A stretch of DNA of 30,309 nucleotides, taken from positions 1 to 30,309 of IMG/VR virus record IMGVR_UViG_3300043357_000044; one strand, 5' to 3'. This DNA is from a virus. Each line of letters starts with the position of its first letter. Positions within the stretch are counted from its first letter, which is position 1. Shown piece after piece: positions 9,690 through 28,993 of the stretch. The notes below the pieces were generated by a model, which was given only the letters and a program-made list of their open reading frames with translations, was not told the DNA's origin and did no database searches. The position numbers and the translations under genes were made by a program.

Positions 9690-10595
9690 TCACACCCCTT
9701 GGTTGGCGTAGATCGCGCGCCAGTCTGCCCAGAATGCGCTGTACCGCTCGTAGCACGCAGCCTTGGCATTCTTTGTATCGAAGTCGTTGTCCTGGTCGAA
9801 CGAAATCGCATCGCGTTCGAAGTACGTCAGGCCGTTGGGGATGTTGGTGCGGACGAAGTACGCCGTCGCCGATGTGAAGTAGTGGTTGACCTTGATGCCC
9901 TTGGGGAAGGTGCCGACCGCACGCAGCACGTTGATTGCATTGTTGGCAGTGTCGTTCTGCAGCACCGAGTTGTAGATGCGGTTCGCTTCGAACCACAGCT
10001 GTGGCGGCACATGCAGCGACATCGGCAGCGCCGAGATGCGCATGCCACGATTGTTCTGGCACTGCATCACCTGGATCACCAGATCCTCGATCGCCACCTC
10101 GCTGATATCCGCCGCAACGCCGAGATTGCTCTGTGATCCCGACAACGTCGGATGGTTGGCGGAGATCAAAGGCTGGCCGTCGGCACCGAGCGATGTGCCC
10201 GAGAACGCGAGGTTGTAGAGCCCCGCAAGCACGTTCTCCTTGGTCTGGCGCATACTGAACGCCAGCTGGGCCGCACGCCGCTTGGAGACTACCTCGTAGA
10301 GGTCGTCACGCAGCTCTTCGTAGGTCACGATGTAGCCGAGGGCATAGGCGACGTGGGTGAACCGGCTGACCGGGCCTTGCACTTCGATGTCGTAGAAGAT
10401 CTGCGCGCCTTGCGGCTTCACCGGGGCAAGGCCGAAGCCGGTGATCTCCACCTCCTCTTCGTACGCCTTGTCCGACGTCTGCCGATCGAACAGATCGAGA
10501 TACTCGACTGGGTGTTCGTTGTAGCTCCGGCCCCAGAAGGCCTTGACCCCAGGCCACAGCGCCTTGGGATGCGAGCCAGTGGTGATGACTGCCAT
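9690..10595 (-). CDS. Major capsid protein (HK97-fold expected)
   Basis: 301 aa, with AGGGAG before the ATG. The sequence starts MAVITTGSHPKALWPGVKAFWG. It contains FYDIEVQGPVSRFTHVAYALGYIVTYEELRDD, which fits an HK97 E-loop to spine-helix transition, and ends with the P-domain-like ENVLAGLYNLAFSG and TSATAYFVRTNIPNGLTYFERD. The Mu gpT-like pattern 'tee.rDd.y' is present. It lies after scaffold and decoration-type genes, the standard order of head modules, and is one of two proteins of the right size for the shell. Assignment rests on this pattern plus context; a fold search would confirm it. Confidence 0.8.
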   Translation of the reverse strand: MAVITTGSHPKALWPGVKAFWGRSYNEHPVEYLDLFDRQTSDKAYEEEVEITGFGLAPVKPQGAQIFYDIEVQGPVSRFTHVAYALGYIVTYEELRDDLYEVVSKRRAAQLAFSMRQTKENVLAGLYNLAFSGTSLGADGQPLISANHPTLSGSQSNLGVAADISEVAIEDLVIQVMQCQNNRGMRISALPMSLHVPPQLWFEANRIYNSVLQNDTANNAINVLRAVGTFPKGIKVNHYFTSATAYFVRTNIPNGLTYFERDAISFDQDNDFDTKNAKAACYERYSAFWADWRAIYANQGV

Positions 10596-10607
10596 TGTCG
10601 CTCTCCC

Positions 10608-13023: not shown

Positions 13024-13425
13024 TCATTCTTGCTTGTCGTACAGCGCTCCCACCGACTTCTGCGACACCAGCCGGTATTCGACGCTGTCCTGGCCCTGCA
13101 CCACGCGCCCGGCATAGCGCTCCACCACCACACGGTTGCCTGGGACCGGTCGGAACCGTGGGTCGACTATGCGCACGCCGTCGTCGCTGAACACGAAGGC
13201 TGCGTGGCCGAGCGCGATGATCACGCCGGTCTCGCTCGCCATGCTCTGGCGCGAACGCGCGTCGTCGGGAATGACGATGCCGCCCGACGTCTTCTCGGCG
13301 TGCTCGTCCATCAGCACCAGCACCTTGTCATCGAGGGGGGTGATCCCGCTGTGGTTGGTGCCGTCCCAGGCAGCCTGCACGAACTCGCGCTGGTCGCCGG
13401 TTCGGAGAACGCGTCCCTCAAGCAT
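13024..13425 (-). CDS. GroES-like co-chaperonin
   Basis: 133 aa. After a 27-residue N-terminal extension comes a Cpn10 fold: ITPLDDKVLVLMDE (residues 28-41), the mobile-loop region EKTSGGIVIPDD (44-55) whose GIVIP tripeptide contacts GroEL, ETGVIIALGHAAF, and the closing PVPGNRVVVERYAG (93-106) and YRLVSQKSVGALY strands. Phage co-chaperonins such as T4 gp31 replace GroES so that the host chaperonin can fold the capsid protein. Its place between portal and scaffold supports that role. It overlaps the HNH gene by 8 nt. The N-terminal extension is unusual for the family. Confidence 0.85.
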   Translation of the reverse strand: MLEGRVLRTGDQREFVQAAWDGTNHSGITPLDDKVLVLMDEHAEKTSGGIVIPDDARSRQSMASETGVIIALGHAAFVFSDDGVRIVDPRFRPVPGNRVVVERYAGRVVQGQDSVEYRLVSQKSVGALYDKQE

Positions 13426-13987: not shown

Positions 13988-14328
13988 CAGACCCTCCCCT
14001 CCGGTGCTGGCGTGGTGTCGCCGAAGTACCAGCGCAGCACGTCGGGCCACTCCAGCGCCACCAGCTCGCTGCACATCAGTGCGCGGCCGCGAAACTCCGT
14101 CAGGATCACCTGTTCCATCTCACCCGCCAGGAAGGCTCTAAGCGCATCACGCAGGAGGCTGTCCCGGTAGTCCTCCAGCCATGCCAGCACCTGCACCGTT
14201 ACCGGGTGGTGTTTCCAAAGACTGAAGTCCCCCGGCGATAGATCCAGCAAGGCCGGGCGGCGCGCCTCCACCACCTCCTCCGCCGGAGCTGTCACCTTCG
14301 TCAGAAGGTCCGCCGTTAGTTGTAACAT
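13987..14328 (-). CDS. 113-aa protein overlapping the portal C-terminus
   Basis: 113 aa with natural-looking composition: HHPVTVQVLAWLEDYRDSLL, a GEMEQVILTEFRGRAL helix and LEWPDVLRWYFGD. Its first 182 nt overlap the 3' end of the portal gene in another frame, where the portal reading is a low-complexity Gly/Pro tail. The stop is joined to the HNH start as TGATG. Position after the portal suggests a head-module accessory role, but I do not recognise the family. The start is uncertain, since the Shine-Dalgarno before 14328 is weak (GAG, 7 nt). Confidence 0.65.
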   Translation of the reverse strand: MLQLTADLLTKVTAPAEEVVEARRPALLDLSPGDFSLWKHHPVTVQVLAWLEDYRDSLLRDALRAFLAGEMEQVILTEFRGRALMCSELVALEWPDVLRWYFGDTTPAPEGRV

Positions 14329-16744: not shown

Positions 16745-16751
16745 GGTCCCC

Positions 16752-16774
16752 GGCACTCTCCAGCAGCACGGCTA
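16752..16774 (-). repeat. Solitary TIGR-like unit before the portal gene
   Basis: In minus sense TAGCC, a 9-nt spacer (GTGCTGCTG) and GAGAGTGCC, seven nucleotides before the portal ATG. Both halves and the 9-nt spacing match the large arrays further right. It could be a decayed array, a seed for a new one, or a repeat recruited as ribosome-binding sequence (it contains GGAGAG). Confidence 0.7.
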
Positions 16775-16805
16775 CCATATCTAGACGCTGCGCGGCGTTA
16801 CGAAG

Positions 16806-17060
16806 TCAACCGCTGGTCGTTCCCCGTTCGGTCCATGCGCCACACCAGTAATCTGGCCGCACCACCGGGAAGGTGCTGAAGGGCCGGAGTTCCATAGACG
16901 TTCCGAGCTTCGATGGCATCGGGATGAGGAACGCTGTCGGCGGGTTGCGGCGGCAGTTGAGATCCCCGGCTGGGTCTTTCCACGAATAGCGGCAAGTCGC
17001 GCAGGCTTGGTCGAGCATGCGCACGGCGACGTCGCGCGGAACGATTAAGGTTGAGGACAC
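16806..17060 (-). CDS. Four-cysteine HiPIP-like small protein
   Basis: 84 aa, GTG start at 17058-17060. Cysteines at 20, 23, 36 and 73 lie in CATCRYS, NCRRNPP and WCGAW; the CxxC...CRRnPP...FPvV...WCGxW arrangement is that of small phage proteins resembling high-potential iron-sulfur proteins. It could bind an Fe-S cluster or zinc; nothing in the sequence decides between them. There is no Shine-Dalgarno: the start codon directly touches the base of the stem element at 17061-17113, so initiation may depend on that structure. The gene lies between terminase and portal. Confidence 0.75.
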   Translation of the reverse strand: MSSTLIVPRDVAVRMLDQACATCRYSWKDPAGDLNCRRNPPTAFLIPMPSKLGTSMELRPFSTFPVVRPDYWCGAWTERGTTSG

Positions 17061-17113
17061 GGCGGGCAGTCTACACCGAGGGTAGCTCTCGGCGTCTACC
17101 TAGACTGCCCGCC
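17061..17113 (-). ncRNA. Structured element copy 1: outer stem with competing GGTAG/CTACC core
   Basis: In minus sense: outer stem arm (13 nt, 17101-17113), GGTAG, ACG, CCGAG, AG, CTACC, CTCGG, TG, then the second outer arm (17061-17073), which is perfectly complementary. GGTAG pairs with CTACC and CCGAG with CTCGG in an a-b-a'-b' order: a pseudoknot topology, or two mutually exclusive hairpins because some connecting loops are 0 nt. The GTG of the next gene follows at once. The upstream arm overlaps the last, degenerate half-repeat of the neighbouring array (GAGCGGGC). Confidence 0.75.
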
Positions 17114-17295
17114 CGCTCAGCCCTCAAGGTACTCTCGCACTCATCGGCTCGCTCCAACCATTCGGCACTCTCCCAGCCTGTGGCTCGCTCGCTATCTTCG
17201 GCACTCTCTCCAACACCGGCTCGCTCTGTGAAGTCGGCACTCTCATCGAAGGCGGCTCGCTCCTGTGGCTCGGCACTCTCCCGGGTGGCGGCTCA
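17110..17295 (-). repeat. TIGR-like array 1 (11 half-repeats)
   Basis: Between terminase and the four-cysteine gene. Half-repeats start at exact 18-nt steps from 17110 to 17290, alternating GGCTCGCTC and GGCACTCTC on the plus strand (GAGCGAGCC and GAGAGTGCC in transcribed sense), with ten 9-nt spacers all different. The promoter-distal end is degenerate (GGTACTCTC at 17128 and CGCCCGCTC at 17110). At the other end the terminase stop codon (17293-17295) lies within the first half-repeat. Confidence 0.88.
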
Positions 17296-18804
17296 GTAGC
17301 CGGTCACCCTCGAGCGCGTGCGATCTTGGGTCAAGCGCGAGTTCAGCTCGATGAGGTCGTTGTCGGCCTGATCGCCCTTCCACTGGAGGCTGGGGCCAAA
17401 CAGCCGGGTCGCGGCATACTGCAGCGCATCAGCGGGGTGACTGTAGAGGTTCTTCTCCGGCCGCTCAGCCCAGCGCTCGGTGCCGGCGATCTGGATGCGG
17501 CGGTAGTGGTAGCCCCCCTGCATGGCGCGGCGCAGGCGCGTGCACCTGGGGTGCAGATTGAACGCCGGCTGCCCGTCATCGTCGAATTGCCGCAGCGGCT
17601 TCCGTACACACTCCTGCCTGATTTGCGGCGACTGGAGCCCGGCCTCGATCCGCACGCCCTTGGAATGCAGGATGTCAAAGCAAGTGCGCTCGTCCGTCTG
17701 CGAGCGGGCCTCGCCGGCCGGGTCGCCGACGTCGGCGAATTCGCTGTCCGGGAAGTGCTGCGAGCTGTGGGACAGCACCTGATCGCTGAACCGGTCGACC
17801 CCCATGGTGTCGGCGCACAGCTCGTCGACGATCTTCCACTGACCCGTCGCCGACAGCTGGCTGAAGATGCAGGCGGGCGTCAGGCCGAAGTCCCAGCTGC
17901 GATAGACCGGCAGACGCGGGCTGGTCTTCGGGGCCTTCTTGTCGTTGGCCGAGCCAGGGCAATGGATGTTGTCGTGGTATTCCGGGAAGACCGGCCTGCC
18001 CTCGACGACGAAGCCATATTCACCGCGACAATATACCTTGATCCATTCATCGGTTTTTCCGATGGCCAGCCGCTGCCAGTAGCCGGCTGACTGGTTCGCC
18101 ATGTTCTCGGCGTGTGGCGACAACCCGGACGGTTGTTTGAACACGCGGGCATACTTCTCCACCGTCATGCCGGGCATGAACGCGGCCAGCTCCGCCACCG
18201 CCTCGCTGTGATCTGCCTGCTCGAAGAAGCGATACCACGCGCTGTCGGCGTCGGGCGGGTTGGTATCCATGATGATGCCGGCCCAGGTGGCGCCACCGTC
18301 GCGCTTGGCGGGGTAGCGATCGACGCGGCCCTGCAGGGCGTCGATGATCGCCCACGGCACTTCCCTGGCCTCATTGACCCAGGCGCCGGTCAGATCGAGC
18401 GACAGGAGATTACGGATATGATCCGGCCGATCGAGTGCGCGGAACAGAAGCTCGATTTCGGCACACTGCTTGTCGCCATCGGCAATCAACTTGTTCAGCA
18501 GGTATTCATGCTCCGTTGCACGCCAGATCCCCATCATTGGGTAGGGAAACCATTGGTGAACGGTGCGGATCGTCGTGTCCCGTAGCTGCGGATACGAGTT
18601 GCGGATCACCGCCCAGCGCGAGCGGCGCACACCGTCTGGCCCGGGCTTCTGCTTCAGGCCTCGGGCCACGATGTCCCACAGACACCCTGAGGATTTGCCG
18701 CTGCCGAACGGCCCCATCAGCCCCCGGATGAACGCGTCGTCATTGAGGAAGCGGTCGATCGTCGGGACGCAGGTCGCGTCGTAGTTTATGACTTTGCGGT
18801 TCAT
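17293..18804 (-). CDS. terL: Terminase large subunit
   Basis: 503 aa. The ATPase has a Walker A loop GPFGSGKSS (residues 31-39), a Walker B-type strand LLSLDLTGAWVNEARE (133-148; acidic pair at N144-E145) and the coupling motif IIMDTNPPD (177-185). The RNase H-fold nuclease shows YRSWDFGLTP (D305), FADVGDPAGEA (D358, D361) and a C-terminal SHPADALQYAATRL. The enzyme cuts concatemeric DNA and pumps it into the procapsid through the portal. No small terminase is recognisable nearby. The ATG lies 6 nt after a strong stem element and lacks a Shine-Dalgarno. The stop is embedded in array 1. Confidence 0.95.
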   Translation of the reverse strand: MNRKVINYDATCVPTIDRFLNDDAFIRGLMGPFGSGKSSGCLWDIVARGLKQKPGPDGVRRSRWAVIRNSYPQLRDTTIRTVHQWFPYPMMGIWRATEHEYLLNKLIADGDKQCAEIELLFRALDRPDHIRNLLSLDLTGAWVNEAREVPWAIIDALQGRVDRYPAKRDGGATWAGIIMDTNPPDADSAWYRFFEQADHSEAVAELAAFMPGMTVEKYARVFKQPSGLSPHAENMANQSAGYWQRLAIGKTDEWIKVYCRGEYGFVVEGRPVFPEYHDNIHCPGSANDKKAPKTSPRLPVYRSWDFGLTPACIFSQLSATGQWKIVDELCADTMGVDRFSDQVLSHSSQHFPDSEFADVGDPAGEARSQTDERTCFDILHSKGVRIEAGLQSPQIRQECVRKPLRQFDDDGQPAFNLHPRCTRLRRAMQGGYHYRRIQIAGTERWAERPEKNLYSHPADALQYAATRLFGPSLQWKGDQADNDLIELNSRLTQDRTRSRVTGY

Positions 18805-18810
18805 GAGATT

Positions 18811-18867
18811 GGCCGGTTGTTACACTGTAGAGGGTAGCGCTCTACAGGCTACCTGTAACAACCGGCC
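18811..18867 (-). ncRNA. Structured element copy 2, just before terL
   Basis: In minus sense: 14-nt outer arm (18854-18867), GGTAGC, CTGTAGAG, C, GCTACC, CTCTACAG, and the complementary 14-nt arm (18811-18824). The topology equals copy 1: outer stem enclosing a (GGTAGC), b (CTGTAGAG), a' and b'. Outer and b stems differ completely in sequence from copy 1 but still pair perfectly, while GGTAG/CTACC is kept, which is covariation evidence for a functional RNA fold. It overlaps the last half-repeat of array 2 (GAGCGGGCC) and ends 6 nt before the terminase ATG. Confidence 0.8.
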
Positions 18868-19299
18868 CGCTCACCACCCATGGCACTCTCTGCAGGTACG
18901 GCTCGCTCAGCGGCGCTGGCACTCTCGTCGAACACGGCTCGCTCGGTGATCACGGCGCTCTCGTCGAACACGGCTCGCTCCTACTGCACGGCACTCTCGG
19001 TAGTTCTGGCTCGCTCACTGGCGTCGGTGCTCTCATCACTAGCGGCTCGCTCTGTCGTAACGGCACTCTCGTCGTAGTCGGCTCGCTCGCTATTCTCGGC
19101 ACTCTCCAATTCGACGGCTCGCTCCTTTCGCTCGGCTCCCTCATCTCCTGCGGCTCGCTCAGCTTGTTCGGCACCCTCCAGCCTGTCGGCCGCTCCCATT
19201 TATCGGCACTCTCACGACTGCCGGCTCGCTCCGCTCCTGCGGCACACTCATTCACCCCGGCTCGCTCCCGTTCTCCGGCACACTCATGCAGCTCGGCTA
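18864..19299 (-). repeat. TIGR-like array 2 (25 half-repeats)
   Basis: Fills the gap between a 67-aa gene and terminase. It has 24 spacers and a 36-nt double period. One half-repeat at 19188 lacks 1 nt (GGCCGCTC); all other steps are 18 nt. Spacer GTCGAACAC (plus sense) occurs twice in adjacent units (18927 and 18963), always after the GGCACTCTC/GGCGCTCTC type. Spacer AGCTTGTTC at 19161 recurs in array 6. The stop codon (TAG, 19297-19299) of the upstream gene is inside the first half-repeat. No protein-coding use: the 1-nt deletion breaks every frame. Confidence 0.92.
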
Positions 19300-19500
19300 C
19301 TCGCCGACCTTGCTGCCATCCTGCAGCGGCTCCGGCAATTCCGCCTCATGTTCGTGCGTCCAGGGCTTCGGTGGCTTGCCGGCATAGGCGTGAAATATGT
19401 AGTTCTCCCTGGTCGGTGGAATGTCGCTCTTGAGCATCCAGTCCAGTGTCACATCACCCTTCCGATGCTCTTCCCAATCAATCCTCTTCGTCGTCGCCAT
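19297..19500 (-). CDS. Small protein of unknown function
   Basis: 67 aa, soluble and charged, starting MATTKRIDWEEHRKGDVTLDW and ending in an acidic Pro-rich tail (HEHEAELPEP). It overlaps the upstream 661-aa gene by 23 nt and has GGAGG 8 nt before its ATG. Array 2 begins at its stop codon. I do not recognise the family; the compact size and position between a large virion-type protein and terminase give no firm clue. Confidence 0.7.
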   Translation of the reverse strand: MATTKRIDWEEHRKGDVTLDWMLKSDIPPTRENYIFHAYAGKPPKPWTHEHEAELPEPLQDGSKVGE

Positions 19501-21463
19501 AGTCCTTGCCTCCAGCCCAAGTGGGCAACTTTAGCCCACCCGCATGCTTTACGATAGCTTCTCGTCTCTCATCAGGCGTTAATCCTCGGAACTGGCCCCG
19601 GTTCTGCCAGATGTTCTCGATGTGCTTGACGAACGCCGGGTCGCGCTTCTGCTCCGGCGAGAACAGCCCCCGGATGCCCTCCCAGGTCACCGACTGCACC
19701 TCTCGGGGCAGGACACGGCTCTTCGTCTCCTCCGCCAGCTCCGCTGCCGCCCGGCGGTAGGCCTCAGCCTGCAGGCCATACATGCCTCGGTTGCCCAGCA
19801 TGGCGTTGTTGGCCACACCCGGTCTGCCCTTGCCGACCGAGGTGCCGAGCCCGTGGCCGACCTCGATCGACTTGCCGCCGAGCGGGCGGAACAGCGCGGC
19901 GGCGATCGCGTGCGTGTCGTTGGTGATATCGCCGTGCGTCAGGTTATTCGGTGCGATGATGTTATTATAGAAATTGCGCACCTTGTGGTTGCCGCCCATC
20001 AGCCTGGAGATCGTCGCCTTGTCGGCGGTCTGCATCGCCGCCATCGCCTTGGCGATCTCGTTGAAGCTGCCCCAGCTGACCTTGCGCGGCGTTGCCTCGG
20101 AGATGAGCTTGCCCTTCTTGGTGTACTTCGCGGGCACCATCATCGTGCCGGCATCATCGCCCTCGGGGTTGATGATGTTGTAGTCGCGCGGGGTGTGGGC
20201 CTCGTCGTGCCAGCGCGCGAACACCGCACGCTCATGCGGGTCGGTCAGCTTCGACATAGGCGTGGACTGGAACTTCTCGAACAGCCGGCGCAGCTCGGGG
20301 ATCTGCTTCGGATCGTCCTTCGGCGCCTCGCCTTTCGCCTCCGCTTTGCCGCGCTGCTTAGCCGCCTCATCCTCGAGCGACTTGATGTAGCCGGTGGCGT
20401 ACTTGTGCATCTCCGGCGTCATGCGCCAGTTGTCGCCGAGCTGGTGCGCCTTCATCACCCGCCGGGCCAGCTCGACGTTTTGATACCAGTCCTTCTGCGG
20501 GCTGAGCGCGGCCAGCACAGCTGCTGCCTGATGTGGTTGGACGTTGAACTCTGTCGCCAGATTGTGGGCGATGCGGTTGGCACCCTCGTACCACTTCTTC
20601 GACCGCTCAACGATGTCGGGGCCGAGATCCTGGCCCATCCGGTTGTAGAGCCATTTGATGTTGCCCTTCATGTGCTCGATGAAGTGCTCGGTGATCTTGT
20701 GCGGGTCGTTGGTCCGTAGGTGCTCGAGCCCTGGGTAGTTCTTGATCAGCTGGGCGTTCTTCTCCAGCGCCTCGGGCGCCTGCTTCATGCTCTCCAGGCC
20801 GATCCGCAGATCACCCGTGGTGTGCGCGTCGACGCCGGTCTTCTTCTGCTGCGCTTCGGACGGGATGCGCGTGGAGATGCGGTCCTGGTCGCGGCTCTGC
20901 ACCGGGGTGTCGGAGATCTTCGGCTCAGGCGCGGCGCCAGCTGGGCTGCCGTAGGTCGGCACGTCGGGCGCCAGGGCGGCCATCTGGCGCGCCTTCCGGC
21001 CTACCAGTCCGCCGGTTGTCGGGTCTTGCTTGAACTGGGTGACGTCGGTCGGACCGCCCCCAGGTCGAGCTCCTGGTGCTTCCCACGGCGGCGTGGAGGC
21101 TGGTGGCGGTGTTCCACGTGAAACACCCGGCATAGGTACTGCCATAGCGGCGGCACTCGGTCCTGGTGCCGCAGCCTGCAGTGCGGCCGCTCCAGACGGC
21201 GCCCCAGGCGGCGGCAGACCACCCTCCGGCGGGGCCATCGGCGACGGTGCCATGGCCTGCTGGCCGAGCTGGGTCAGATGCATCGCGGCCTGCGGCGGCT
21301 GGATCGGCGCGACGTTCGGTGCCGCGCGTGGCGTCTGCCACAGCTGGTCAGTCAGCTTGGCCAGTGGGTCGAGCTGCTCGCGGTATTTGGCGAGCGGGTT
21401 CGTCTCGAGGTCGCGCTTGGGGTCGAGCTTCGGGTAGGGGATGCCGCCGAGAAGGTCGCTCAC
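19478..21463 (-). CDS. Large virion-associated protein, DUF7178-like
   Basis: 661 aa, GTG start overlapping the previous stop as GTGA. Residues 1-200 are Pro/Ala-rich and probably disordered. From about 215 a helical domain begins with NYPGLEHLRTNDPHKITEHFIEH, then NRIAHNLATEFNVQPHQAAAVLAALSPQKDWYQNVELA; this 'aaavLAALSPQkdWyqNv' pattern, with the later HTPRDYNIINPEGDDAG and KVSWGSFNEIAKA, is shared by a widespread phage family annotated as DUF7178. The 'hHhhSPQ.dW..N' part is reminiscent of a helix-hairpin DNA-binding fold, but function is unknown. The C-terminus is GWxGG-free and acidic (DYGDDEED). It may be an ejected or internal virion protein; that is inference from size and place. Confidence 0.75.
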   Translation of the reverse strand: MSDLLGGIPYPKLDPKRDLETNPLAKYREQLDPLAKLTDQLWQTPRAAPNVAPIQPPQAAMHLTQLGQQAMAPSPMAPPEGGLPPPGAPSGAAALQAAAPGPSAAAMAVPMPGVSRGTPPPASTPPWEAPGARPGGGPTDVTQFKQDPTTGGLVGRKARQMAALAPDVPTYGSPAGAAPEPKISDTPVQSRDQDRISTRIPSEAQQKKTGVDAHTTGDLRIGLESMKQAPEALEKNAQLIKNYPGLEHLRTNDPHKITEHFIEHMKGNIKWLYNRMGQDLGPDIVERSKKWYEGANRIAHNLATEFNVQPHQAAAVLAALSPQKDWYQNVELARRVMKAHQLGDNWRMTPEMHKYATGYIKSLEDEAAKQRGKAEAKGEAPKDDPKQIPELRRLFEKFQSTPMSKLTDPHERAVFARWHDEAHTPRDYNIINPEGDDAGTMMVPAKYTKKGKLISEATPRKVSWGSFNEIAKAMAAMQTADKATISRLMGGNHKVRNFYNNIIAPNNLTHGDITNDTHAIAAALFRPLGGKSIEVGHGLGTSVGKGRPGVANNAMLGNRGMYGLQAEAYRRAAAELAEETKSRVLPREVQSVTWEGIRGLFSPEQKRDPAFVKHIENIWQNRGQFRGLTPDERREAIVKHAGGLKLPTWAGGKDYGDDEED

Positions 21464-23370
21464 GATGTCCCCCGCTTGTGCTCGGCCAGGGCATCGGCGC
21501 CTGCGTCGACCATCGCCGGCAGGCCGTTGCGCTTGACGATGTTCAGCGTGCGCGGATCGAACACCACGTAGTTGTGCGAGACCTGACTGCGTAGGTGGTC
21601 GACATACTCCTGCTGCTTGCTGAGGCGGAATGCATCGGCGCCCTGGGCTCGCATCTCAGCAAGCTTGGCCTCACCCTGGGTGAGAGCATGCACATGCTGG
21701 CGACTGCCAGCGTCGGCGTATTTGATGCCAGGGATGCCAGCCTCGAGCAGGCTCTTCGCTGCACCAGCCCTACCGGAGCCCCCGGCTTCGAACTCCGGCG
21801 ACAGGCTCTGCATGGCAGAATGCACCTCCTCGCCGCTCGCGGTGAGCGGATGCATGCCGGTCATATGGCCCAGCTCCATAGCGCGCTCGACATGTGGCCG
21901 CAGTCGCTCCTGCACGTACTGGCTGTGCTGATGCAACGGCTTGTCCCAGTCGAGCATATGGTCGGGATGGACGTGCAGCTCGGCCTCGTAGAGATGGCCC
22001 TGGTCGTTGGTGAAGTGCTCCGGCTTCAGCTTCTCTGCCGCCATGTGCGTCCCGAGATGGAGCTGCGCCCGCCTGCGGTTCGCCTCCTTCGCCGACGCTG
22101 AGCCGGCGTCCCACATCGACGCGGACGCATGAGCGTCCTTGTATTCGGCGCTCACCTTCTGGATCGCCTGCTGCGCGGTCAGCCCCTGGTCCTGCATGTA
22201 TTCGGCGACCTGATGCACCGCCAGCGCGTGCGGGTCTGACATACTGCGTGGGATCGAACCGCCTTGGTACTTCACACCACCGGACAGATCGTCGCGGTAG
22301 CCCTGCGCCACCTTCTCGTTGCCGGCGACATACGGGCCATGGCCATACGCCTGCGCGCCCTCACCCGTGCCCAGCTTGGAGATGTCGAACTCACCGAGCG
22401 GGTTGGCGCGCGTGCCTCGGAACTCGTGCGGCGTGCCGTGGAACACCTGCAGCGGCGCGCTGTGGCGGATCAGCTGACCGCTGCCGTAGGCCTCCGGCCC
22501 CGGTGCCGCAGGCATGTTGCCACGGGCCTGTACCTGCGCCAGGGCGGCGCGCTGGTGGTGCTCGCCCTCGTCATAGTCGGCGATCCGCTTGCCGTCCCAC
22601 GGCTGGTAGGCGCCCGCCTGCGGATCGTGCGCCATGAACACGACATCCGGCCGACCACCGTTGTGCGCCTTGAACGTATCGTGCTTCCAGCCCTCGGGCT
22701 TGTACTCCTCGTTCCACGGCAGGCGTGCGACGGCACGGAAGCCGTTCTGCGCATAGAGGTGCGGCAGCACCGTATCGAACGCATCGAGCCGTCGGCCGCC
22801 GTTCTGCTTGGCGAGGTCGAGCATCGATCGGGTGACGTTACGGTATGGCGCCTTCGGATGTTTGAACACCGAGACGATGTCGTCGCCCTTCAGGGCGAAC
22901 CCTGCGTCGCGCTCCTTGGTCAGGAACGTGCGCATGTCCTTGTAGTCTTCGGCGGGATATTGGGTGACGGCGGCGCCCGCCTCGTGGGCGTGTTTGGCAG
23001 CGCCGATCGCGCTGTGGAACGCCTCGGCGCCCTCGGGATGCAGCTCGTGGTAGGTGGGATTGTCGGCGTTCGGATAGCTGGTCTTCGCTGTCCAGGTCGT
23101 TTTGACCGGCGCGTCTACACCCAGTGGCGAAGCTCTGCCCGGGCTTGCTCCACGGTAATTCCCTTCTGGCTCGCCAGCTTGTGCGCCAGCTCCTCCAACA
23201 GCCTGTCCGCCTCCCGGTGGATGTCCGGGGTCGAGTGGTAGCTGTGTGGCTGGTGTTGCTGCAGCAGGTGGCTGCCCTTGGGCGGTCGTCTGGCCATAGT
23301 TAGTTCCTAACGCTGACGGACTGGTCGGCGCGAGCGGTGGATAGGCAATGGTGCCGAGTGCCGCTGACAT
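21460..23370 (-). CDS. Polyvalent-type protein: GNAT-like plus ADP-ribosyltransferase-like domains
   Basis: 636 aa as drawn. Residues about 104-250 (SYPNADNPTYHEL, GFALKGDDIVSVFKHP, RRLDAFDTVLPHLYAQNGFR, GRPDVVFMAHDP) resemble the GNAT-like domain of phage polyvalent proteins. Residues 308-345 (VFHGTPHEF, FDISKLGTGEGAQAYGHGPYVAG), 455-480 (HLYEAELHVHPDHMLDWDKPL) and 545-606 (GIPGIKYADAGSR, NYVVFDP) form an ADP-ribosyltransferase-like fold often carried in virions and possibly injected to modify host proteins. The first about 95 residues are P/A/G-rich and overlap a plausible 60-aa gene in another frame, so the true start may lie elsewhere or involve frameshifting. Catalytic residues were not assigned. 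Confidence 0.75.
   Translation of the reverse strand: MSAALGTIAYPPLAPTSPSALGTNYGQTTAQGQPPAAATPATQLPLDPGHPPGGGQAVGGAGAQAGEPEGNYRGASPGRASPLGVDAPVKTTWTAKTSYPNADNPTYHELHPEGAEAFHSAIGAAKHAHEAGAAVTQYPAEDYKDMRTFLTKERDAGFALKGDDIVSVFKHPKAPYRNVTRSMLDLAKQNGGRRLDAFDTVLPHLYAQNGFRAVARLPWNEEYKPEGWKHDTFKAHNGGRPDVVFMAHDPQAGAYQPWDGKRIADYDEGEHHQRAALAQVQARGNMPAAPGPEAYGSGQLIRHSAPLQVFHGTPHEFRGTRANPLGEFDISKLGTGEGAQAYGHGPYVAGNEKVAQGYRDDLSGGVKYQGGSIPRSMSDPHALAVHQVAEYMQDQGLTAQQAIQKVSAEYKDAHASASMWDAGSASAKEANRRRAQLHLGTHMAAEKLKPEHFTNDQGHLYEAELHVHPDHMLDWDKPLHQHSQYVQERLRPHVERAMELGHMTGMHPLTASGEEVHSAMQSLSPEFEAGGSGRAGAAKSLLEAGIPGIKYADAGSRQHVHALTQGEAKLAEMRAQGADAFRLSKQQEYVDHLRSQVSHNYVVFDPRTLNIVKRNGLPAMVDAGADALAEHKRGTS
23115..23297 (-). 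CDS. 60-aa protein overlapping the N-terminus of the ART-like gene
   Basis: 60 aa. The second half (TPDIHREADRLLEELAHKL, then GITVEQARAELRHWV) is a convincing amphipathic helical sequence. AGGA lies 7 nt before the ATG at 23297. In the frame of the 636-aa gene the same DNA gives only P/A/G-rich sequence, typical of an out-of-frame shadow. It may be an independent nested gene, or the real N-terminus of the ART-like protein joined by a frameshift near 23115. I cannot tell which. Confidence 0.55.
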   Translation of the reverse strand: MARRPPKGSHLLQQHQPHSYHSTPDIHREADRLLEELAHKLASQKGITVEQARAELRHWV

Positions 23371-23381
23371 GGCGACACTCT

Positions 23382-23716
23382 AGCACGCTCTCCTCACTCG
23401 GCACTCTCGCTAGAGACGGCTCGCTCGTAATTGTCGGCACTCTCCAGTGCAACGGCTCGCCCCTACATTACGGCACTCTCTGGATTGTCGGCTCGCTCCT
23501 GCACCTCGGCACTCTCGGGTGTCACGGCTCGCTCTGTTGCCTCGGCACTCTCCTATAACGCGGCTCGCTCCGACACTTCGGCACTCTCTTCTGTCGCGGC
23601 TCGCTTTCGTAAATCGGCACTCTCACAGGTCGCGGCTCGCTCGCATTCATCGGCACTCTCTTTGGTCACGGCTGAGGTCGCTCATCGGTTGTCGGCACTC
23701 TCCTCAGACACGGCTA
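23382..23716 (-). repeat. TIGR-like array 3 (19 half-repeats), directly after tas
   Basis: Runs from the tas stop codon (TAG 23714-23716, inside the first half-repeat) to 11 nt before the ART-like gene. It has 18 spacers, mostly 9 nt. One half-repeat carries an internal insertion (GGCTGAGGTCGCTC near 23676) and its neighbouring spacer is 10 nt, a net +6. The distal half-repeat is degenerate (AGCACGCTC at 23382). Confidence 0.92.
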
Positions 23717-24928
23717 TCGCGACCGCGAACGTCTGGCACGTAATGCGATCTCTCGCGCCTCAGCAAGCCCGTCCACGATCTCCACATTGGGGATGTCCAG
23801 CAGATGCACATGCTGCGGACCGCCATACTCGAACACGAACGGCCAAGGCGGCAGCGCATTATACTCGCGCCAATACATCACCTCATGAAGGTGCGCGAGG
23901 AACAGCTTCACCGCACGCCGCTGCGCCCGCAGATGGATGCGCGCAGGCGGCAGCATGCCCTGCGAATACCATTTGAACGCGTCGGTCTTCGGATCGAACT
24001 TCTTGTTCTCTAAGCTGGCCTTCGCTTGATCGGCGTAGAGCTGACGGCTGTTGCGCTCGGTCTCCCATTCCTTCCTCTGCTTGTACAGCTTGCCGTAGAC
24101 GTCGTCGGGCCGGTTGCTCACCTTCACGAAGCTCTCGCCGATCAGGAAGCACAGCCGCTTCAGGCTGGCGTTCCACGGCCGCTTGGTGCCCTTGGCCCAC
24201 ACGCTGGTCGGGTCGAGGCCGGCGAAGCGCCAGATATGACCCACCGTCGGCGCCTTCTTGATATCGATGTTCGCCAGCAACCCGGCCGCGATCACCGGAC
24301 CGATGCCCTTGACGCTGCGCGCCCACACGCCGCTGCGGTTGGACAGGCTGTAGATGTCGAGTGTGCCCCGGATCTGCTTCTCGAGCGTCTCCTCCTGGAC
24401 GAACAGCCACTCCAGCACCTCGTGCGGCTCGGTCACCGGCTCGCCGGCCAGCTGCGCCATCTCCTCGACCTGCTCAGTAGCCTCCGCCTCTTCGTCGACC
24501 GGAGGCTCGTCTTCGCCGTTGCCTTTGGGCTTCTTCGGCTCCGCCAGAGTGCGTACCTGATGCTTCGTGCGGATGCGGTTTTCCTGCATGAGGTAATAGG
24601 CGTCGACAAGGAAGCGCGCCTCGATCGTGCCCAGCGTGCGGCTGGCCTGCTTCAGATCTCGGTCCAGCTTCTGGATCGGCGTGAGCAGGTTCGGGTCAGC
24701 CGTGCTGGTCATCAGCTGGTGCAGCGCATCGAGCATCTGGAACAGGGTGGAGATGAAGTCGCCGCTGGGTGGCAGGTTGCGGCCCATGCGCAGCAGGTTC
24801 AGCGCCTCGGACACCAGCTCGAGGGGTGTCATGGCGAGGAAGTCCTCAGGCCCCATAGGGCCTTCGGGATGCTCAGGCGGTGGTGGTGTGGTTTCCTTCT
24901 TGGTCTTCGATGTTCTCGGTGTTCTCAC
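23714..24928 (-). CDS. tas: Tas-like Nop-domain protein without visible nuclease
   Basis: 404 aa, GTG start with AGGAG 6 nt upstream (24935-24939). Order: Pro-rich N-terminus (1-30), helices 30-130, an acidic linker (131-165), a helix/coiled coil (165-200), then SVKGIGPVIAAGLLANID (205-222) and HIWRFAGLDPTSVWAKGTKRPWN (231-253), a helix block to 350, and a basic tail (ALRARRSRSR). The GIGPxxAAxLLA...FAGLDP core is shared by Nop domains of box C/D proteins and the C-terminal domain of IS110 transposases, the relatives reported for Tas proteins. No DEDD/RuvC or HNH motif is seen, so it probably binds tigRNA and target DNA without cutting. TIGR-like arrays flank it on both sides; array 4 with its promoter lies immediately upstream. 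An IS110 remnant is the main alternative, but the N-terminal catalytic domain is absent and no insertion ends are seen. Confidence 0.85.
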   Translation of the reverse strand: MRTPRTSKTKKETTPPPPEHPEGPMGPEDFLAMTPLELVSEALNLLRMGRNLPPSGDFISTLFQMLDALHQLMTSTADPNLLTPIQKLDRDLKQASRTLGTIEARFLVDAYYLMQENRIRTKHQVRTLAEPKKPKGNGEDEPPVDEEAEATEQVEEMAQLAGEPVTEPHEVLEWLFVQEETLEKQIRGTLDIYSLSNRSGVWARSVKGIGPVIAAGLLANIDIKKAPTVGHIWRFAGLDPTSVWAKGTKRPWNASLKRLCFLIGESFVKVSNRPDDVYGKLYKQRKEWETERNSRQLYADQAKASLENKKFDPKTDAFKWYSQGMLPPARIHLRAQRRAVKLFLAHLHEVMYWREYNALPPWPFVFEYGGPQHVHLLDIPNVEIVDGLAEAREIALRARRSRSR

Positions 24929-24944
24929 GATGGGCTCCTGGGGT

Positions 24945-25531
24945 GGTTCACTCTGGGGTTACGGCACTCTCTTCGGGCGCGGTTCACTCGTCCTCTACGG
25001 CACTCTCGATGATCGCGGTTCGCTCCATCTACACGGCACTCTCGCTTGACACGGCTCGCTCATGGGGATCGGCACTCTCCCGTAACGCGGCTCGCTCTCC
25101 TGATACGGCACTCTCATTCCAACCGGCTCGCTCCTTGATCATGGTACTCTCGCGTTCAACGGCTCGCTCGGATACTCCGGCACTCTCCACAGCGATGGCT
25201 CGCTCCTCGTCGACGGCACTCTCGTTCCTGCAGGCTCGCTCTTTCTGGTCGGCACTCTCCGCCTTGGCGGCTCGCTCATACTCATCGGCGCTCTCAGGCT
25301 TGACGGCTCGCTCACACCGTTCGGCACTCTCGTCATGGTCGGCTCGCTCTGGCGTCACGGCACTCTCGCTGAGCGCGGCTCGCTCAAGGACTTCGGCACT
25401 CTCCGCTGACTCGGCTCGCTCCGTTTGGTCGGCACACTCACAGATTGCGGCTCGCTCTCGGATACCTCGGCACTCTCAGCCAGCTCGGCTCGCTCCCCGT
25501 TGTCGGTACCCTCGGGAACTACGGCTCGCTC
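24945..25531 (-). repeat. TIGR-like array 4 (33 half-repeats), leading into tas
   Basis: Starts about 4 nt after the predicted transcription start and ends 16 nt before the tas GTG, so array and tas should share a transcript. It has 32 spacers; one is 11 nt (25458-25468), the rest 9. Promoter-side repeats are canonical, while the tas-side repeats decay (GGTTCACTC at 24945 and 24981, GGTTCGCTC at 25017), resembling trailer-end decay of CRISPR arrays. Spacer CGTTTGGTC (25422) recurs in array 5. Confidence 0.93.
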
Positions 25532-25541
25532 AGAACGGGGG

Positions 25542-25570
25542 ATACTAGAATGGCAAGCGCAAAAAGTCAA
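25542..25570 (-). promoter_or_regulatory. Sigma70-type promoter for array 4 and tas
   Basis: In minus sense TTGACT (25565-25570), a 17-nt spacer and TAGTAT (25542-25547): 5/6 and 4/6 matches to the -35 and -10 consensus. The predicted start near 25535 puts the first half-repeat (25531) almost at the 5' end of the RNA. This is the only array with a promoter I can see; it also fixes the transcribed strand. The region 25571-25638 between it and the upstream gene holds nothing else I can identify. Confidence 0.7.
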
Positions 25571-25638
25571 GATGGCTTATCTTGCTTCATCTGTCTTGCT
25601 GGCAGAAAGATGCAATGACGCAAGGAAGGGAAGGTAGG

Positions 25639-25851
25639 CTAGTGGCGGCGCGACCTGCCGGCGTGCCAGCTGGCATGGGGCAGCGGCAGGGCGGCCAGGA
25701 CATGGTGGCGCTCCCAGCCGGCCAGCTGCTCGGGGTTGAGGGTGATCACGCTCTCGCGGTTGCCATTGTTCCAGCGGATGTAGACCTGCCACTGGATCTG
25801 GCGCTCCGAGTTCTCGGCACTCTCGTCGGGAACGGCTCGCTCGGCTATCAC
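25639..25851 (-). CDS. Small protein whose 5' end overlaps array 5
   Basis: The convincing part is the last 55 residues (RQIQWQVYIRWNNGNRES, VITLNPEQLAGWERHHVLA), a small beta-type protein with a basic tail. No ATG, GTG or TTG lies between the array and this part, so the start must be inside the array: a GTG at 25849-25851 preceded by GGAGAG of a half-repeat (70 aa), or an ATG at 25882-25884. Translation would then begin with residues encoded by repeat DNA (ERA and ESA triplets). Function unknown. Confidence 0.5.
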   Translation of the reverse strand: MIAERAVPDESAENSERQIQWQVYIRWNNGNRESVITLNPEQLAGWERHHVLAALPLPHASWHAGRSRRH

Positions 25852-26415
25852 GGCACTCTCCAAGCTCGCGGCTCGCTCCTGCATATCGGCACACTCTCGT
25901 TTTTCGGCTCGCTCAACGGGTTCGGCACTCTCCGCTACATCGGCTCGCTCCCGCTCGTCGGCACTCTCGTCACACGCGGCTCGCTCAGATCTATCGGCAC
26001 TCTCCCGATCGACGGCTACGCTCAGGACATTCGGCACTCTCGAACATCACGGCTCGCTCGGCATATGCGGCACTCTCGTCACACGCGGCTCGCTCCGTTT
26101 GGTCGGCACTCTCGCGTCTTGCGGCTCGCTCAACGGGTTCGGCACTCTCTACTGTCTCGGCTCGCTCGCGTGATACGGCACTCTCTCATTTAGCGGCTCG
26201 CTCACGCCTTTCGGTACACTCTACCGTCTCGGCTCGCTCCTGTTGTTTGGCACTCTCTGGGGGAACGGCTCGCTCCACCCTTCGGCACTCTCTGCATCAG
26301 CGGCTCGCTCCACCCTATCGGCACCCTCCAGTTCTACGGCTCGCTCTGGGCCGTCGGCACTCTCGCCTTACTCGGCTCGCTCCGTGGTTGCGGCACACTC
26401 CTACCGTTCGGCTCA
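25816..26415 (-). repeat. TIGR-like array 5 (34 half-repeats)
   Basis: Lies between a two-helix membrane protein and the small gene above. There are 33 spacers. One half-repeat has an extra base (GGCTACGCTC, 26014-26023) and one spacer is 8 nt (26276-26283), so the total length stays in register. Spacers GTCACACGC (25969, 26078) and AACGGGTTC (25915, 26132) each occur twice, in the same A/B position. The upstream stop codon (TGA, 26413-26415) is inside the first half-repeat. Confidence 0.93.
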
Positions 26416-26637
26416 CCTCAAGGACACGTCCACCGGCTCAGCTGTGGTCTTCAACAGCCACGCGTTCTTGGCCAGACCAAACCCGATCACCGCGAGACAC
26501 GCCAGCACAACGATCGCCTTGAGGATCGGCGCCAGCAAGATCGGCTGGCTGGTGGCCTCGATGAGCAGGTCGATCAGCCAGCCCAGCAGCCACGCGATCA
26601 CGCCGTAAACGACCGCGCGCTCTTGCATCAACATCAT
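26413..26637 (-). CDS. Small two-helix membrane protein
   Basis: 74 aa. Two hydrophobic segments: VVYGVIAWLLGWLIDLLIEA (about 9-28) and ILLAPILKAIVVLACLAV (about 33-52), with a short loop and a C-terminal polar tail (KTTAEPVDVSLR). Size and topology would fit a class II holin or another inner-membrane phage peptide, but no endolysin is nearby in the window. The ATG overlaps the upstream stop as ATGA. Function is not determined. Confidence 0.7.
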   Translation of the reverse strand: MMLMQERAVVYGVIAWLLGWLIDLLIEATSQPILLAPILKAIVVLACLAVIGFGLAKNAWLLKTTAEPVDVSLR

Positions 26638-26867
26638 CGTCGTCCCACCGGATGCGCCATCCCGCTGCCGTTATGAAACGCTGTGCCGCCGCAGTTGTGC
26701 GCAGCCAGCTTGCCGCCTCCTGCCAGCCTGACGATCGACAGCAGTCGCTTGGCGCTAGGTGGGCGCGCTGCCCGCTGGCGGCCCGCCGCCACCGCCGAGG
26801 AGGCCGGCGAGCCCGCCAAGCCCCCCGCCATCGCCTTGGGGACTAGCCCCTGACTGATCACCGCCAT
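26634..26867 (-). CDS. Small protein overlapping the preceding gene in another frame
   Basis: 77 aa, with AGGAG 7 nt before the ATG and a stop joined by ATGA to the membrane-protein gene, both of which favour real translation. The C-terminal half (KRLLSIVRLAGGGKLAAHN, then HNGSGMAHPVGRR) is basic. Its first 113 nt lie inside the 77-aa Gly-rich gene in a different frame. No family recognised. Confidence 0.5.
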   Translation of the reverse strand: MAVISQGLVPKAMAGGLAGSPASSAVAAGRQRAARPPSAKRLLSIVRLAGGGKLAAHNCGGTAFHNGSGMAHPVGRR

Positions 26868-26988
26868 TGCTCGGCTCCTGTGGCATCGGTGGCAGCTGCT
26901 GCCGCTTCTTGCGCTTGTGTCGCGGCGGGTGCGCCTCCGGCCCTTCGGTGAAAGCGCCCGGCGCTTCGGGGAATGCTTGGTCGCTCAA
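26755..26988 (-). CDS. Gly/Pro-rich small protein
   Basis: 77 aa with a TTG start directly after the upstream TGA and GGGAGG 5 nt before it. It has a basic patch (RHKRKKRQQ) near residue 25 and a Gly-rich C-terminus (GGGLGGLAGLLGGGGG). Low complexity prevents family assignment. It overlaps the next gene by 113 nt. Confidence 0.6.
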   Translation of the reverse strand: MSDQAFPEAPGAFTEGPEAHPPRHKRKKRQQLPPMPQEPSNGGDQSGASPQGDGGGLGGLAGLLGGGGGPPAGSAPT

Positions 26989-27489
26989 TCACGCCTCCCT
27001 ATGCGGCTCGTCCCAGCTATGCGGCTGCACCTCAGGAGGCCTCTCCTCCGGTGCTGGCAGCGAGTGATCCGGCTCCCCAGGCTCCGGCTCAGGCTCAGGC
27101 TCGACCTCCGGCTCTTCAGGCCCCACCTCCGGCTCGACTGGCGGTTCCACGACAGGTGGCGCCTCAGGCTCGCTGCCCGTCATCACCACACGCGGCACCT
27201 CCGCTGCCTCGGCCTGGGTCAACCCGAAGTCGGCGACCAGACACGCCAGGATCTGCGGCTCGAGCGACATCACGTCGACCGCCAGGATGTGCCGCGTCTT
27301 GACCCGCTCAGCGAGGTTCGGAGCGTCAGGATCGCCGGCCATCGACAGGGTGGCAGCCGCGTAGTCGCCATGGATAGCGTAAGTCTGCACCAGAGGCAGA
27401 ACGACTTCCTCGATGAATTCCTCGCCCTCTAGGGCGGTAGGCTCTTCGCGGACGGCGGGCTCTTCGTGGACGGCGTAGTGGTCGGACAT
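26989..27489 (-). CDS. Acidic protein with Pro/Glu repeat tail
   Basis: 166 aa. Residues 1-100 contain a folded-looking part (EFIEEVVLPLVQTYAIHGDY, RVKTRHILAVDVMSLEPQIL, ADFGLTQAEAAEV). Residues 105-145 are P/E repeats (EPPVEPEVGPEEPEVEPEP), a stiff acidic linker. GGGGGAAGAG precedes the ATG. It overlaps the end of the Zn-ribbon-like gene by 61 nt. Function unknown. Confidence 0.75.
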   Translation of the reverse strand: MSDHYAVHEEPAVREEPTALEGEEFIEEVVLPLVQTYAIHGDYAAATLSMAGDPDAPNLAERVKTRHILAVDVMSLEPQILACLVADFGLTQAEAAEVPRVVMTGSEPEAPPVVEPPVEPEVGPEEPEVEPEPEPEPGEPDHSLPAPEERPPEVQPHSWDEPHREA

Positions 27490-27659
27490 TGCTCTTCCCC
27501 CTCATCCTCGGGTGGCGGCCAGTCGATCTCGCCCTCGCCTTTGCATAGCCAGCAGTTCTCGCGGACGATGCGCCTTACTGACCCCGGCGGGGCTGGGACG
27601 ATAACATATTGCCGGCCGTTGCAGTTCGGGCAAATGCAGCGGAACAGACCGACGGTCAC
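27429..27659 (-). CDS. Small Zn-ribbon-like protein
   Basis: 76 aa. Two CxxC pairs (CICPNCNG at 8-15 and CWLCKGEG at 36-43) form a probable zinc ribbon resembling the DnaJ Cys-rich type. The C-terminus is acidic then Pro/Ser/Thr-rich. The GTG start overlaps the upstream stop as GTGA. It may bind nucleic acid or protein; function not known. Confidence 0.7.
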   Translation of the reverse strand: MTVGLFRCICPNCNGRQYVIVPAPPGSVRRIVRENCWLCKGEGEIDWPPPEDEGEEQCPTTTPSTKSPPSAKSLPP

Positions 27660-27985
27660 CGCCGGGACCGCTCACCCTGGCGGTTGGCGACATACGCCTC
27701 GGACGGATGCTCCTCACTGGCGAGGTAGTTTGGTGCGTAGTCGACACGGAACGCTGGGTGATCGGCCGAGCTGGTGTGTTGTTTCGGCTCCGTGTTCTTG
27801 ATCTTGATCAGTGCTTGCCATGCTTGGTAGGGCAGCTGGTCGGGCCAGCCGGCCTGCTGCGCTTCCCAGAGATCGTGCGATGGCGCTTCGATGTGAGGAT
27901 AGCCCACGGCATAGCGCGGAACAGCGGAGACCATGGCGCTGGCGTCAGCTACCAGCGGCTGACCCACAGTCTCCACCCGCTCCAT
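27656..27985 (-). CDS. 109-aa protein of unknown function
   Basis: 109 aa from the ATG at 27983-27985, 6 nt after the last half-repeat of array 6. The same frame runs on upstream through arrays 6 and 7, but that part is repeat DNA and I do not count it. The protein has PRYAVGYPHIEAPSHDLWEAQ, a QLPYQAWQALIKIKNTE helix and a Tyr/Glu-rich C-terminus. No family recognised. It overlaps the Zn-ribbon gene by 4 nt. Confidence 0.65.
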   Translation of the reverse strand: MERVETVGQPLVADASAMVSAVPRYAVGYPHIEAPSHDLWEAQQAGWPDQLPYQAWQALIKIKNTEPKQHTSSADHPAFRVDYAPNYLASEEHPSEAYVANRQGERSRR

Positions 27986-27991
27986 CGAAAC

Positions 27992-28086
27992 GGCGCTCTC
28001 TGGGGGTACGGCTCGCTCAGCTTGTTCGGCACTCTCGCACTTTTCGGCTCGCTCACTTCTATCGGCACTCTCGGCTCTGACGGCTA
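27992..28086 (-). repeat. TIGR-like array 6 (6 half-repeats)
   Basis: The shortest array: five spacers at perfect 18-nt steps from 27992 to 28082. Spacer AGCTTGTTC (28019) is identical to one in array 2. The stop codon (TAG 28084-28086) of the upstream gene is in the first half-repeat. Confidence 0.88.
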
Positions 28087-28248
28087 TTTGTTCATTTTGA
28101 CGAAGGTTCGTAGGACTAGCTGCTTGAACTCCCATCGGTGTTTCTCGGTGTCCTCGAATTGACACAGGCGCAGCCAGTCCCGGTACACGGGGTTTAGTTT
28201 CTCGAGCGTTGACGGGGATTTCGGTCCGTCCGGCTCGCTCCTGCACAT
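28084..28248 (-). CDS. Small basic protein between arrays 6 and 7
   Basis: The last 35 residues (NPVYRDWLRLCQFEDTEKHR, WEFKQLVLRTFVKMNK) look like a natural helical protein. Possible starts are an ATG at 28246-28248 inside the last spacer of array 7, with GAGAG of a half-repeat as Shine-Dalgarno 5 nt before it (54 aa), or a later GTG (VYRDW). Its stop codon lies in array 6, as with five other genes next to arrays. Function unknown. Confidence 0.5.
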   Translation of the reverse strand: MCRSEPDGPKSPSTLEKLNPVYRDWLRLCQFEDTEKHRWEFKQLVLRTFVKMNK

Positions 28249-28993
28249 CGGCGCTCTCGTCTTTAGCGGCTCGCTCCGGCCTATCGGCACTCTCTGGCGG
28301 GTCGGCTCGCTCGCTTAACTCGGCACTCTCGCGCTTCCCAGCTCGCTCCTCAGTCACGGCACTCTCGGTGGTAACGGCTCGCTCTTCAGTATCAGCACCC
28401 TCGTTCGTCGCGGCTCGCTCGGCCTCCTCGGCACTCTCCTTGTCCATGGCTCGCTCTTTTCTGTCGACACTCTCGGTTGTTGCGGCTCGCTCGGCTCGCT
28501 CGGCACTCTCATGGTGATCGGCTCGCTCTGGTACCATAGCACTCTCAACTCGCTCGGCTCGCTCCAAGGGCGCGGCACTCTCACCAATGCCGGCTCGCTC
28601 CCGTTCAACGGCACTCTCTGTCGGCGCGGCTCGCTCTCACTTTTCGGTACACTCCAGTGATCCGGCTCGCTCTGGTACCACGGCACTCTCGCTGGTCGTG
28701 GCTCGCTCATTCGGTTCGGCACTCTCGCTTGCTGCGGCTCGCTCACCTAACTCGGCACTCTTAGTCGACGCGGCTCGCTCACTGTGCCCGGCACTCTCAT
28801 GTAGTACGGCTCGCTCAGCGTCATCGGCACTCTCACGGATTTCGGCCCGCTCATTTCACCCGGCACACTCGGTTGGTGCGGCTCGCTCTGCTTGATCGGC
28901 ACTCTCACACGGCTCGGCTCGCTCCATGTGCTCGGCACTCTCGCTAGCGACGGCTCGCTCAGACCTCTCGGCACTCTCGCTCGAAGCGGCTCA
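28232..28993 (-). repeat. TIGR-like array 7 (43 half-repeats)
   Basis: The longest and most regular array: 42 steps of exactly 18 nt from 28232 to 28988, no indels. One spacer equals the repeat itself (GGCTCGCTC at 28493 region) and two are near-identical (TGGTACCAT, TGGTACCAC). A few half-repeats carry single changes (AGCACCCTC, GACACTCTC, GGCACTCTT, GGCCCGCTC). The upstream stop codon (TGA 28991-28993) is in the first half-repeat. Confidence 0.94.

Follow-up and report, generated by a model that had tools for sequence, protein, structure and literature searches.

A TIGR-TasA system with guide arrays dispersed through a phage late operon, and a match signal that points to related phages as probable targets

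Introduction

The closest described relative of the locus studied here is the dual-repeat type of TIGR-TasA system (e.g. FpTIGR of Flavonifractor plautii), which in the main text of Faure et al. 2025 (PMC12045711) combines alternating ~9-nt repeats, 9-nt spacer slots and a 36-nt unit with a truncated edge repeat at array starts, arrays adjacent to tas, a nuclease-free Nop-domain Tas protein and a viral setting. Other members of the family differ in the effector or in the array. TIGR-TasR (Thermoproteota; PDB 9MTY) carries an N-terminal RuvC domain and TIGR-TasH (Salicola phage CGphi29; PDB 21KL, 9VZX and others) an N-terminal HNH domain, while stem-loop TIGR arrays (e.g. with the TasA of a Peromyscus gut contig), which share the nuclease-free TasA and can have more than one sub-array, hold palindromic stems instead of edge repeats. 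The IS110 transposases IS621 and ISCro4 share a Nop-like RNA-binding fold, but combine it with a DEDD RuvC-like catalytic domain and one bridge RNA. The natural targets of TIGR systems and the origin of their spacers are stated to be unknown in the same paper (PMC12045711).

Here we describe a TIGR-TasA system in the virus record IMGVR_UViG_3300043357_000044, a stretch of 30,309 bases analysed whole (the window), with its minus strand read as the gene direction. The system has all the features listed above for the dual-repeat type. It differs from the FpTIGR-type systems of that main text in having seven arrays and a lone unit distributed along 12 kb among different gaps of the structural gene block, in its ~81 units where 5–15 are said to be most usual, in arrays that start at stop codons, in repeats that end in CCR where those of TasR end in CCA, and in a 404-aa protein with an N-terminal extension.

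Results

Anatomy of the arrays

Two repeats, the edge GAGCGAGCC and the loop GAGAGTGCC, alternate at an 18-nt pitch on the minus strand between 16,734 and 28,993 (Table 1). Exact copies number 70 for the edge repeat, including one on the plus strand, and 61, all on the minus strand, for the loop repeat. The 27-mer pattern of edge, nine free bases and loop occurs 46 times on one strand, never on the opposite strand and never with a reversed-pattern control, confirming the seven arrays and one lone unit of alternating 9-mers that had been proposed from the letters of the window before any database search (the sequence-only reading). That reading counted 171 half-repeats and 164 spacers, which is plausible if more degenerate copies are included; chaining with a position weight matrix of the repeats gives 159 half-repeats in the 18-nt register, with 81 loop-centred guide units in the window. 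Two alternating repeats, ~9-nt spacers and a ~36-nt unit are the hallmarks of a TIGR array, and the anatomy matches that published by Faure et al. 2025, as had been supposed (main text, PMC12045711). The edge repeat is constant and non-palindromic, and no palindromic stems were found in its place, which sets these units apart from the stem-loop TIGR arrays.

Each unit holds one spacer before the loop (sA) and one after it (sB). The lone unit, for example, consists of a truncated edge TAGCC, sA GTGCTGCTG, the loop GAGAGTGCC at 16752–16760, sB GGGGACCAT and, at its 3′ end, the partial edge GAGCGC. The two repeats have their end motifs (box D and box C) in common, beginning with GAG and ending with CC plus the purine at spacer position 1; the middle of the loop repeat is variable and that of the edge repeat is mostly CGA. 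The repeats therefore end in CCR, like the CCA of box C with which TasR repeats end (PMC12045711). Across the relatives, a purine (G or A) occupies spacer position 1 in ~97% (sA) and 97–98% (sB) of units, and its base agrees with candidate targets at chance level only (83 and 72 of 293). Since this position is a near-fixed purine that does not follow the targets, the informative guide is 8+8 nt, the same length as that of SpTasH (8 nt per half, 16 nt in total; PMC12045711). Thus, the 9-nt spacer slot of the sequence-only reading holds, but not its nine variable positions.

A truncated 5′ edge is present in six of the seven arrays and in the lone unit, and five arrays begin at the stop codon of the upstream gene. 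The truncated first edges of arrays 1 (TGAGCC) and 3 (TAGCC) overlap the stop codons of the terminase large subunit gene terL (17293–17295) and of tasA (23714), and those of arrays 2 (TAGCC), 5 (TGAGCC) and 6 (TAGCC) overlap the stop codons of the open reading frames 19297–19500, 26413–26637 and 28084–28290. Strong hairpins without clear T-runs trail arrays 1 and 2, whereas none was found at four other folded stretches near the ends of other arrays. The promoter-like site before array 4 is the sole one in the region, with 1.4 expected by chance, and is only suggestive. Within arrays 2 and 5, spacers such as GCGTGTGAC, GAACCCGTT and GTGTTCGAC recur with different partners, and adjacent units with a common sA are seen in eight contigs, which suggests partial tandem duplication.

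Table 1. Coordinates of the features in the window. For arrays, the second column gives the wider ends and the last column begins with the array span.
Feature	Position	Strand	Description
Portal protein gene	14147..16756	(-)	PHROG 1216, 8.5e-10
Lone tigRNA unit	16734..16775	(-)	directly upstream of portal gene
Array 1	17128..17295	(-)	17128-17280; 9 half-repeats in register; in the terL-portal gap
Array 2	18864..19299	(-)	18864-19285; 18+5 half-repeats; between terL and gene 19478-21463
Array 3	23400..23716	(-)	23400-23702; 15 half-repeats in register and one displaced; adjoins tasA downstream
Array 4	24945..25531	(-)	24945-25531; 29+4 half-repeats; adjoins tasA upstream
Array 5	25816..26415	(-)	25816-26400; 11+21 half-repeats
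Array 6	27983..28086	(-)	27992-28072; 5 half-repeats
Array 7 (longest)	28232..28993	(-)	28232-28978; 42 half-repeats; truncated edge TGAGCC at 28988-28993
Hairpin after array 1	17050..17127	(-)	-48.6 kcal/mol, z -6.1
Hairpin after array 2	18805..18863	(-)	-23.5 kcal/mol, z -3.9
Sigma-70-like promoter	25542..25570	(-)	TTGACT-17-TAGTAT; ends 11 nt before array 4
tasA	23714..24928	(-)	404-aa solo-Nop Tas; PDB profile matches, AlphaFold2 and Foldseek, Pfam, PHROG
Window's own counterpart of the site that the array 6 last unit matches	27886..27901	(-)	TATCCTCACATCGAAG; 3 mismatches, 13/16
terL	17293..18804	(-)	terminase large subunit; PHROG 2, 1.3e-22; tblastn to phage TerL, at most 43% identity
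Major head protein gene	9690..10595	(-)	PHROG 371, 5.3e-9; tblastn, at most 58% identity

The effector is a nuclease-free TasA

The 404-aa protein encoded beside arrays 3 and 4 matches TasR (9MTY, 6e-9) and TasH (21KL, 1e-5) in a phmmer search of PDB, and a profile built from 54 family sequences raises these matches to 3.7e-25 and 3.9e-14, far ahead of IS621 (3.6e-5) and ISCro4 (6e-4). The profile alignment to TasR begins at TasR residue 122, past the RuvC part. An AlphaFold2 model has a mean pLDDT of 74.5, with ~84–94 over most of the Nop core, and divides into an N-terminal extension (~1–80) of low confidence and a Nop/coiled-coil part with C-terminal domain (~85–390), both of the latter shared with TasR. 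The top 11 Foldseek hits of the model are all TasH or TasR, TasH first, with IS110 enzymes next. The sequence-only reading had asked whether the 404-aa protein resembles Nop/Tas folds, and it does. The protein also matches Pfam Transposase_20 (9e-5) and PHROG 4285, labelled transposase (1.7e-42).

No HNH or RuvC nuclease family was matched in Pfam and PHROG scans of the protein, and it has neither the N-terminal RuvC domain of TasR nor the N-terminal HNH domain of TasH. A nuclease concealed in the N-terminal extension was considered and rejected, given no family match and low model confidence there. Since no nuclease domain was found, the protein is of the TasA type, i.e. a Nop domain without RuvC or HNH, a feature that the sequence-only reading does not mention.

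Several Tas homologues carry insertions. The Tas gene of one relative (L009, IMGVR_UViG_3300036846_001526, 9902–12103; L numbers are our handles) has an in-frame intein-like insertion of ~410 aa with LAGLIDADG and Hint domains, and those of L007, L016, L048 and L050 and of L021, L027, L089 and L103 have inserts at two recurrent places of the Nop region, either ~50–65 aa after a GLDPTxxW motif or cysteine-containing after 'IYMG'. Upstream of tas in L093 and L100, open frames pass through the arrays and, as a 36-nt unit makes 12 whole codons, encode the repeats ESTTxxERA and ESAxxxERA.

The layout recurs in relatives

Pattern searches of IMG/VR returned 95 stretches with the exact repeats of the window, and loop-variant matches, at least those listed, came in addition. 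The working set comprised 379 loci and 191 viral contigs with about 2,700 distinct guide units, and most of its contigs have repeats nearly identical to those of the window. A Tas homologue is present in 68 of the 85 array-bearing records searched whole, many of the remainder being short fragments. The closest relatives have arrays in the same gaps, namely between portal and terL, between terL and the next gene, and on both sides of tas. Among nine compared contigs the window has the most half-repeats (159), with 32–124 in the others, some of which are fragments. The dispersed multi-array layout is real and recurs in relatives, and matches to terminase, portal and major head protein support the setting among late genes; both had been proposed for the window alone. 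Across 84,980 species genomes of bacteria and archaea the repeat pattern gave 14 single matches, none of them within an array, so that the search turned up no chromosomal copy of repeats of this type.

Spacers turn over fast and can swap places

Spacer turnover is fast: relatives with ~75% identical Tas have only ~5–15% of their spacers in common. In two cases a unit reappears in another phage with its sA and sB exchanged, identical at 16/16 positions of the 8+8 core: GACATCGAC/ATAAACCGC at L031:8344 against ATAAACCGC/GACATCGAC at L003:9248, and L071:3533 against L056:1940. Shuffled pairs yielded no swapped units. The unit preceding the swap is recognisably homologous in L031 and L003, which places the exchange inside a homologous stretch of array. 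Swapped spacers work for TasR (main text, PMC12045711), and under the published geometry a swapped unit would address the same site on the opposite strand. Phase slippage was rejected as the origin of the swaps (0 matches among 1,982 cross-edge pairs), and so were a third and a fourth swapped pair in L383, the exact one being a labelling error of repeat phase and the other only approximate.

Guides match related phages at the TasR geometry

The published cut positions give an 8-nt 3′ overhang and a C-5 rule (main text, PMC12045711). From these, a target strand is expected to read sA followed directly by the reverse complement of sB, and we searched for such sites with the 8+8 core, with array sequence masked and with sB shuffled among units as the control. 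Over all loci, sites without a gap number 11 exact and 282 with one mismatch, against 5.6 ± 1.9 and 227.7 ± 15.6 for shuffled pairs, whereas gaps of 1–4 gave no excess. This excess of 16-bp matches sits at the geometry known for TasR and, like the swapped units, would fit recognition of both DNA strands by spacers in tandem. In related phages there are 2 exact sites (0.1 for shuffled pairs) and 17 with one mismatch (7.5). With loci joined to contigs and shuffling done within contigs, the units that match a related phage number 42, where 20 shuffles gave 27.9 ± 3.6 and at most 37; the remaining 15 combinations of geometry and gap give 18–33 units. No unit matches its own contig with 0–1 mismatch, where 0.7–1.4 are expected.

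The matches in relatives fall in homologous regions and stand out most beside TIGR arrays; a few others lie in tas, in terL and in a gene nearby. Within 120 bp of related phages' arrays there are 5 units against 0.32 (maximum 1 in 25 shuffles), a figure that is exploratory since this flank zone was picked after hits had appeared there; tas genes of related phages have 2 units against 0.32, other DNA of related phages 9 against 5.7, and unrelated loci, with array flanks and tas set aside, 221 against 200 ± 11. Wherever the site's counterpart in the guide's own phage can be aligned, it has 2–6 mismatches to the guide. For example, the last unit of an array of L014 matches the trailers of L057 and L071 at 16/16 and its own at 11/16, the last unit of an L024 array matches the L071 trailer at 15/16 with 2 mismatches to its own counterpart, and an internal unit of L027 matches the trailers of L094 (16/16) and L063 (15/16) with 4 mismatches to its own. 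A unit of L042 matches L073, L080 and L064 at positions inside tas genes. From the window, the last unit of array 6 (sA GTACCCCCA at 28001–28009, loop at 27992–28000, sB GTTTCGATG at 27983–27991) matches at 15/16 a site in a gene of the relative L025 (L025/L100), and its own counterpart is less similar (Table 1).

The predicted targets of a window unit and of a unit of L063 overlap by 14 nt on opposite strands, a single case, and those of three units of L014 (3816, 3996 and 5616 in minus-strand index) overlap in both orientations. Two unions of overlapping targets (19 nt each) had no exact match among viral contigs, and a test for shifted overlaps of predicted targets was not used as evidence, its counts not being clearly above shuffles.

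Neighbouring genes

The distant relatives of the terminase and head protein found by tblastn belong to proteobacterial and uncultured phages. An HNH endonuclease gene at 13418–14074 (PHROG 374, 3e-56), possibly a homing endonuclease, adjoins the portal gene. Two large proteins are encoded between terL and tas (19478–23370), one of 661 aa with DUF7178 and one of 636 aa with a weak ART-PolyVal match; the gene of the latter is a candidate guide target in relatives.

Discussion

We read the locus as a TIGR-TasA system that probably serves competition among related phages sharing a host, to which we give a probability of roughly 0.6. By analogy with published TIGR work, the arrays would be transcribed together with the late genes and the transcripts cut to 36-nt tigRNAs, which a dimer of TasA would hold; the complex would open and bend matching DNA and, having no nuclease, might obstruct its transcription or replication or keep it in place for some other enzyme. 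The assignment of guides to targets is statistical, and the case for competition among related phages as the most likely use comes from statistics on the small share of guides that have a match. A more specific form, in which many guides aim at the TIGR locus of a rival (array ends, tas), the systems silence each other and guides can be acquired in either orientation, is put forward tentatively as a possibility with the odds against it.

Several points weigh against competition between related phages. More than 95% of the guides lack a convincing match in the DNA searched, and most are unmatched in 3.8 Mb of related DNA, so that the guides could be aimed mainly at hosts, plasmids or phages outside the sample. 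The excess in related phages is modest (at contig level, ~14 units more than by chance), and the flank test, prompted by the hits themselves, came after trials of several statistics, relatedness cut-offs and databases. The loci are biased to TIGR neighbourhoods, though the shuffles share this bias. Mismatches to the own counterpart are partly expected at 60–85% identity, the zero self matches alone are not significant, and the five flank matches include three by last units of arrays, which could reflect how these units originated and not what they target.

Guides directed mostly against host chromosomes, plasmids or unrelated phages, with the matches to related phages a minor part, would account for the many unmatched guides and for the small excess in unrelated loci, and published work could not assign natural targets either (main text, PMC12045711); the clearest excess nevertheless falls in related phages, and we hold this explanation to be unlikely, though it keeps appreciable weight. 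Control of the phage's own genes, with guides that bind its late region and tune neighbouring transcription, would suit arrays that begin at stop codons inside the late operon in gaps kept in relatives, an effector without a nuclease, and the resemblance of some arrays' last units to the sequence just downstream. Yet no unit matches its own contig with 0–1 mismatch (0.7–1.4 expected), and a spacer sharing of 5–15% is ill-suited to conserved regulation of conserved genes, which makes self-control improbable. A slightly smaller chance still is left to the matches in array flanks being traces of guide birth, by copying beside an array or by recombination with a relative's array end, and not of attack. 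Last units supply the flank matches of L014, L024 and the window, but last units as a class match their own trailers with the same distribution as control units, the L027 match comes from an internal unit, and a matching flank has sA and then directly the reverse complement of sB, unlike a copied array unit.

That an IS110-type transposon or a CRISPR array has been mistaken for a TIGR system is extremely improbable, even though Pfam and PHROGs label the protein a transposase. It has no N-terminal DEDD/RuvC domain, and the many-guide arrays with 9-nt dual repeats are neither a single bridge RNA nor the 25–36-nt single repeat of CRISPR; no cas family was found in the proteins scanned. TasR and TasH are far closer than IS621 by profile and by Foldseek, and a PADLOC scan of three proteins gave only one marginal match (0.0044 over 22 residues), taken as chance.

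The family is thus known, but the dispersed layout is not described in the main text of Faure et al. 2025 (PMC12045711), supplementary tables aside. Our literature search found no report of natural TIGR targets and, as far as that search shows, both the target signal and the occurrence of swapped units add new evidence on this question. The phage group offers enough related genomes to test TIGR targets by comparison, and the analysis names concrete pairs of guide and target. The match signal sits at the geometry found in the laboratory, and the prediction is that the targets would be related phages, and especially their TIGR arrays.
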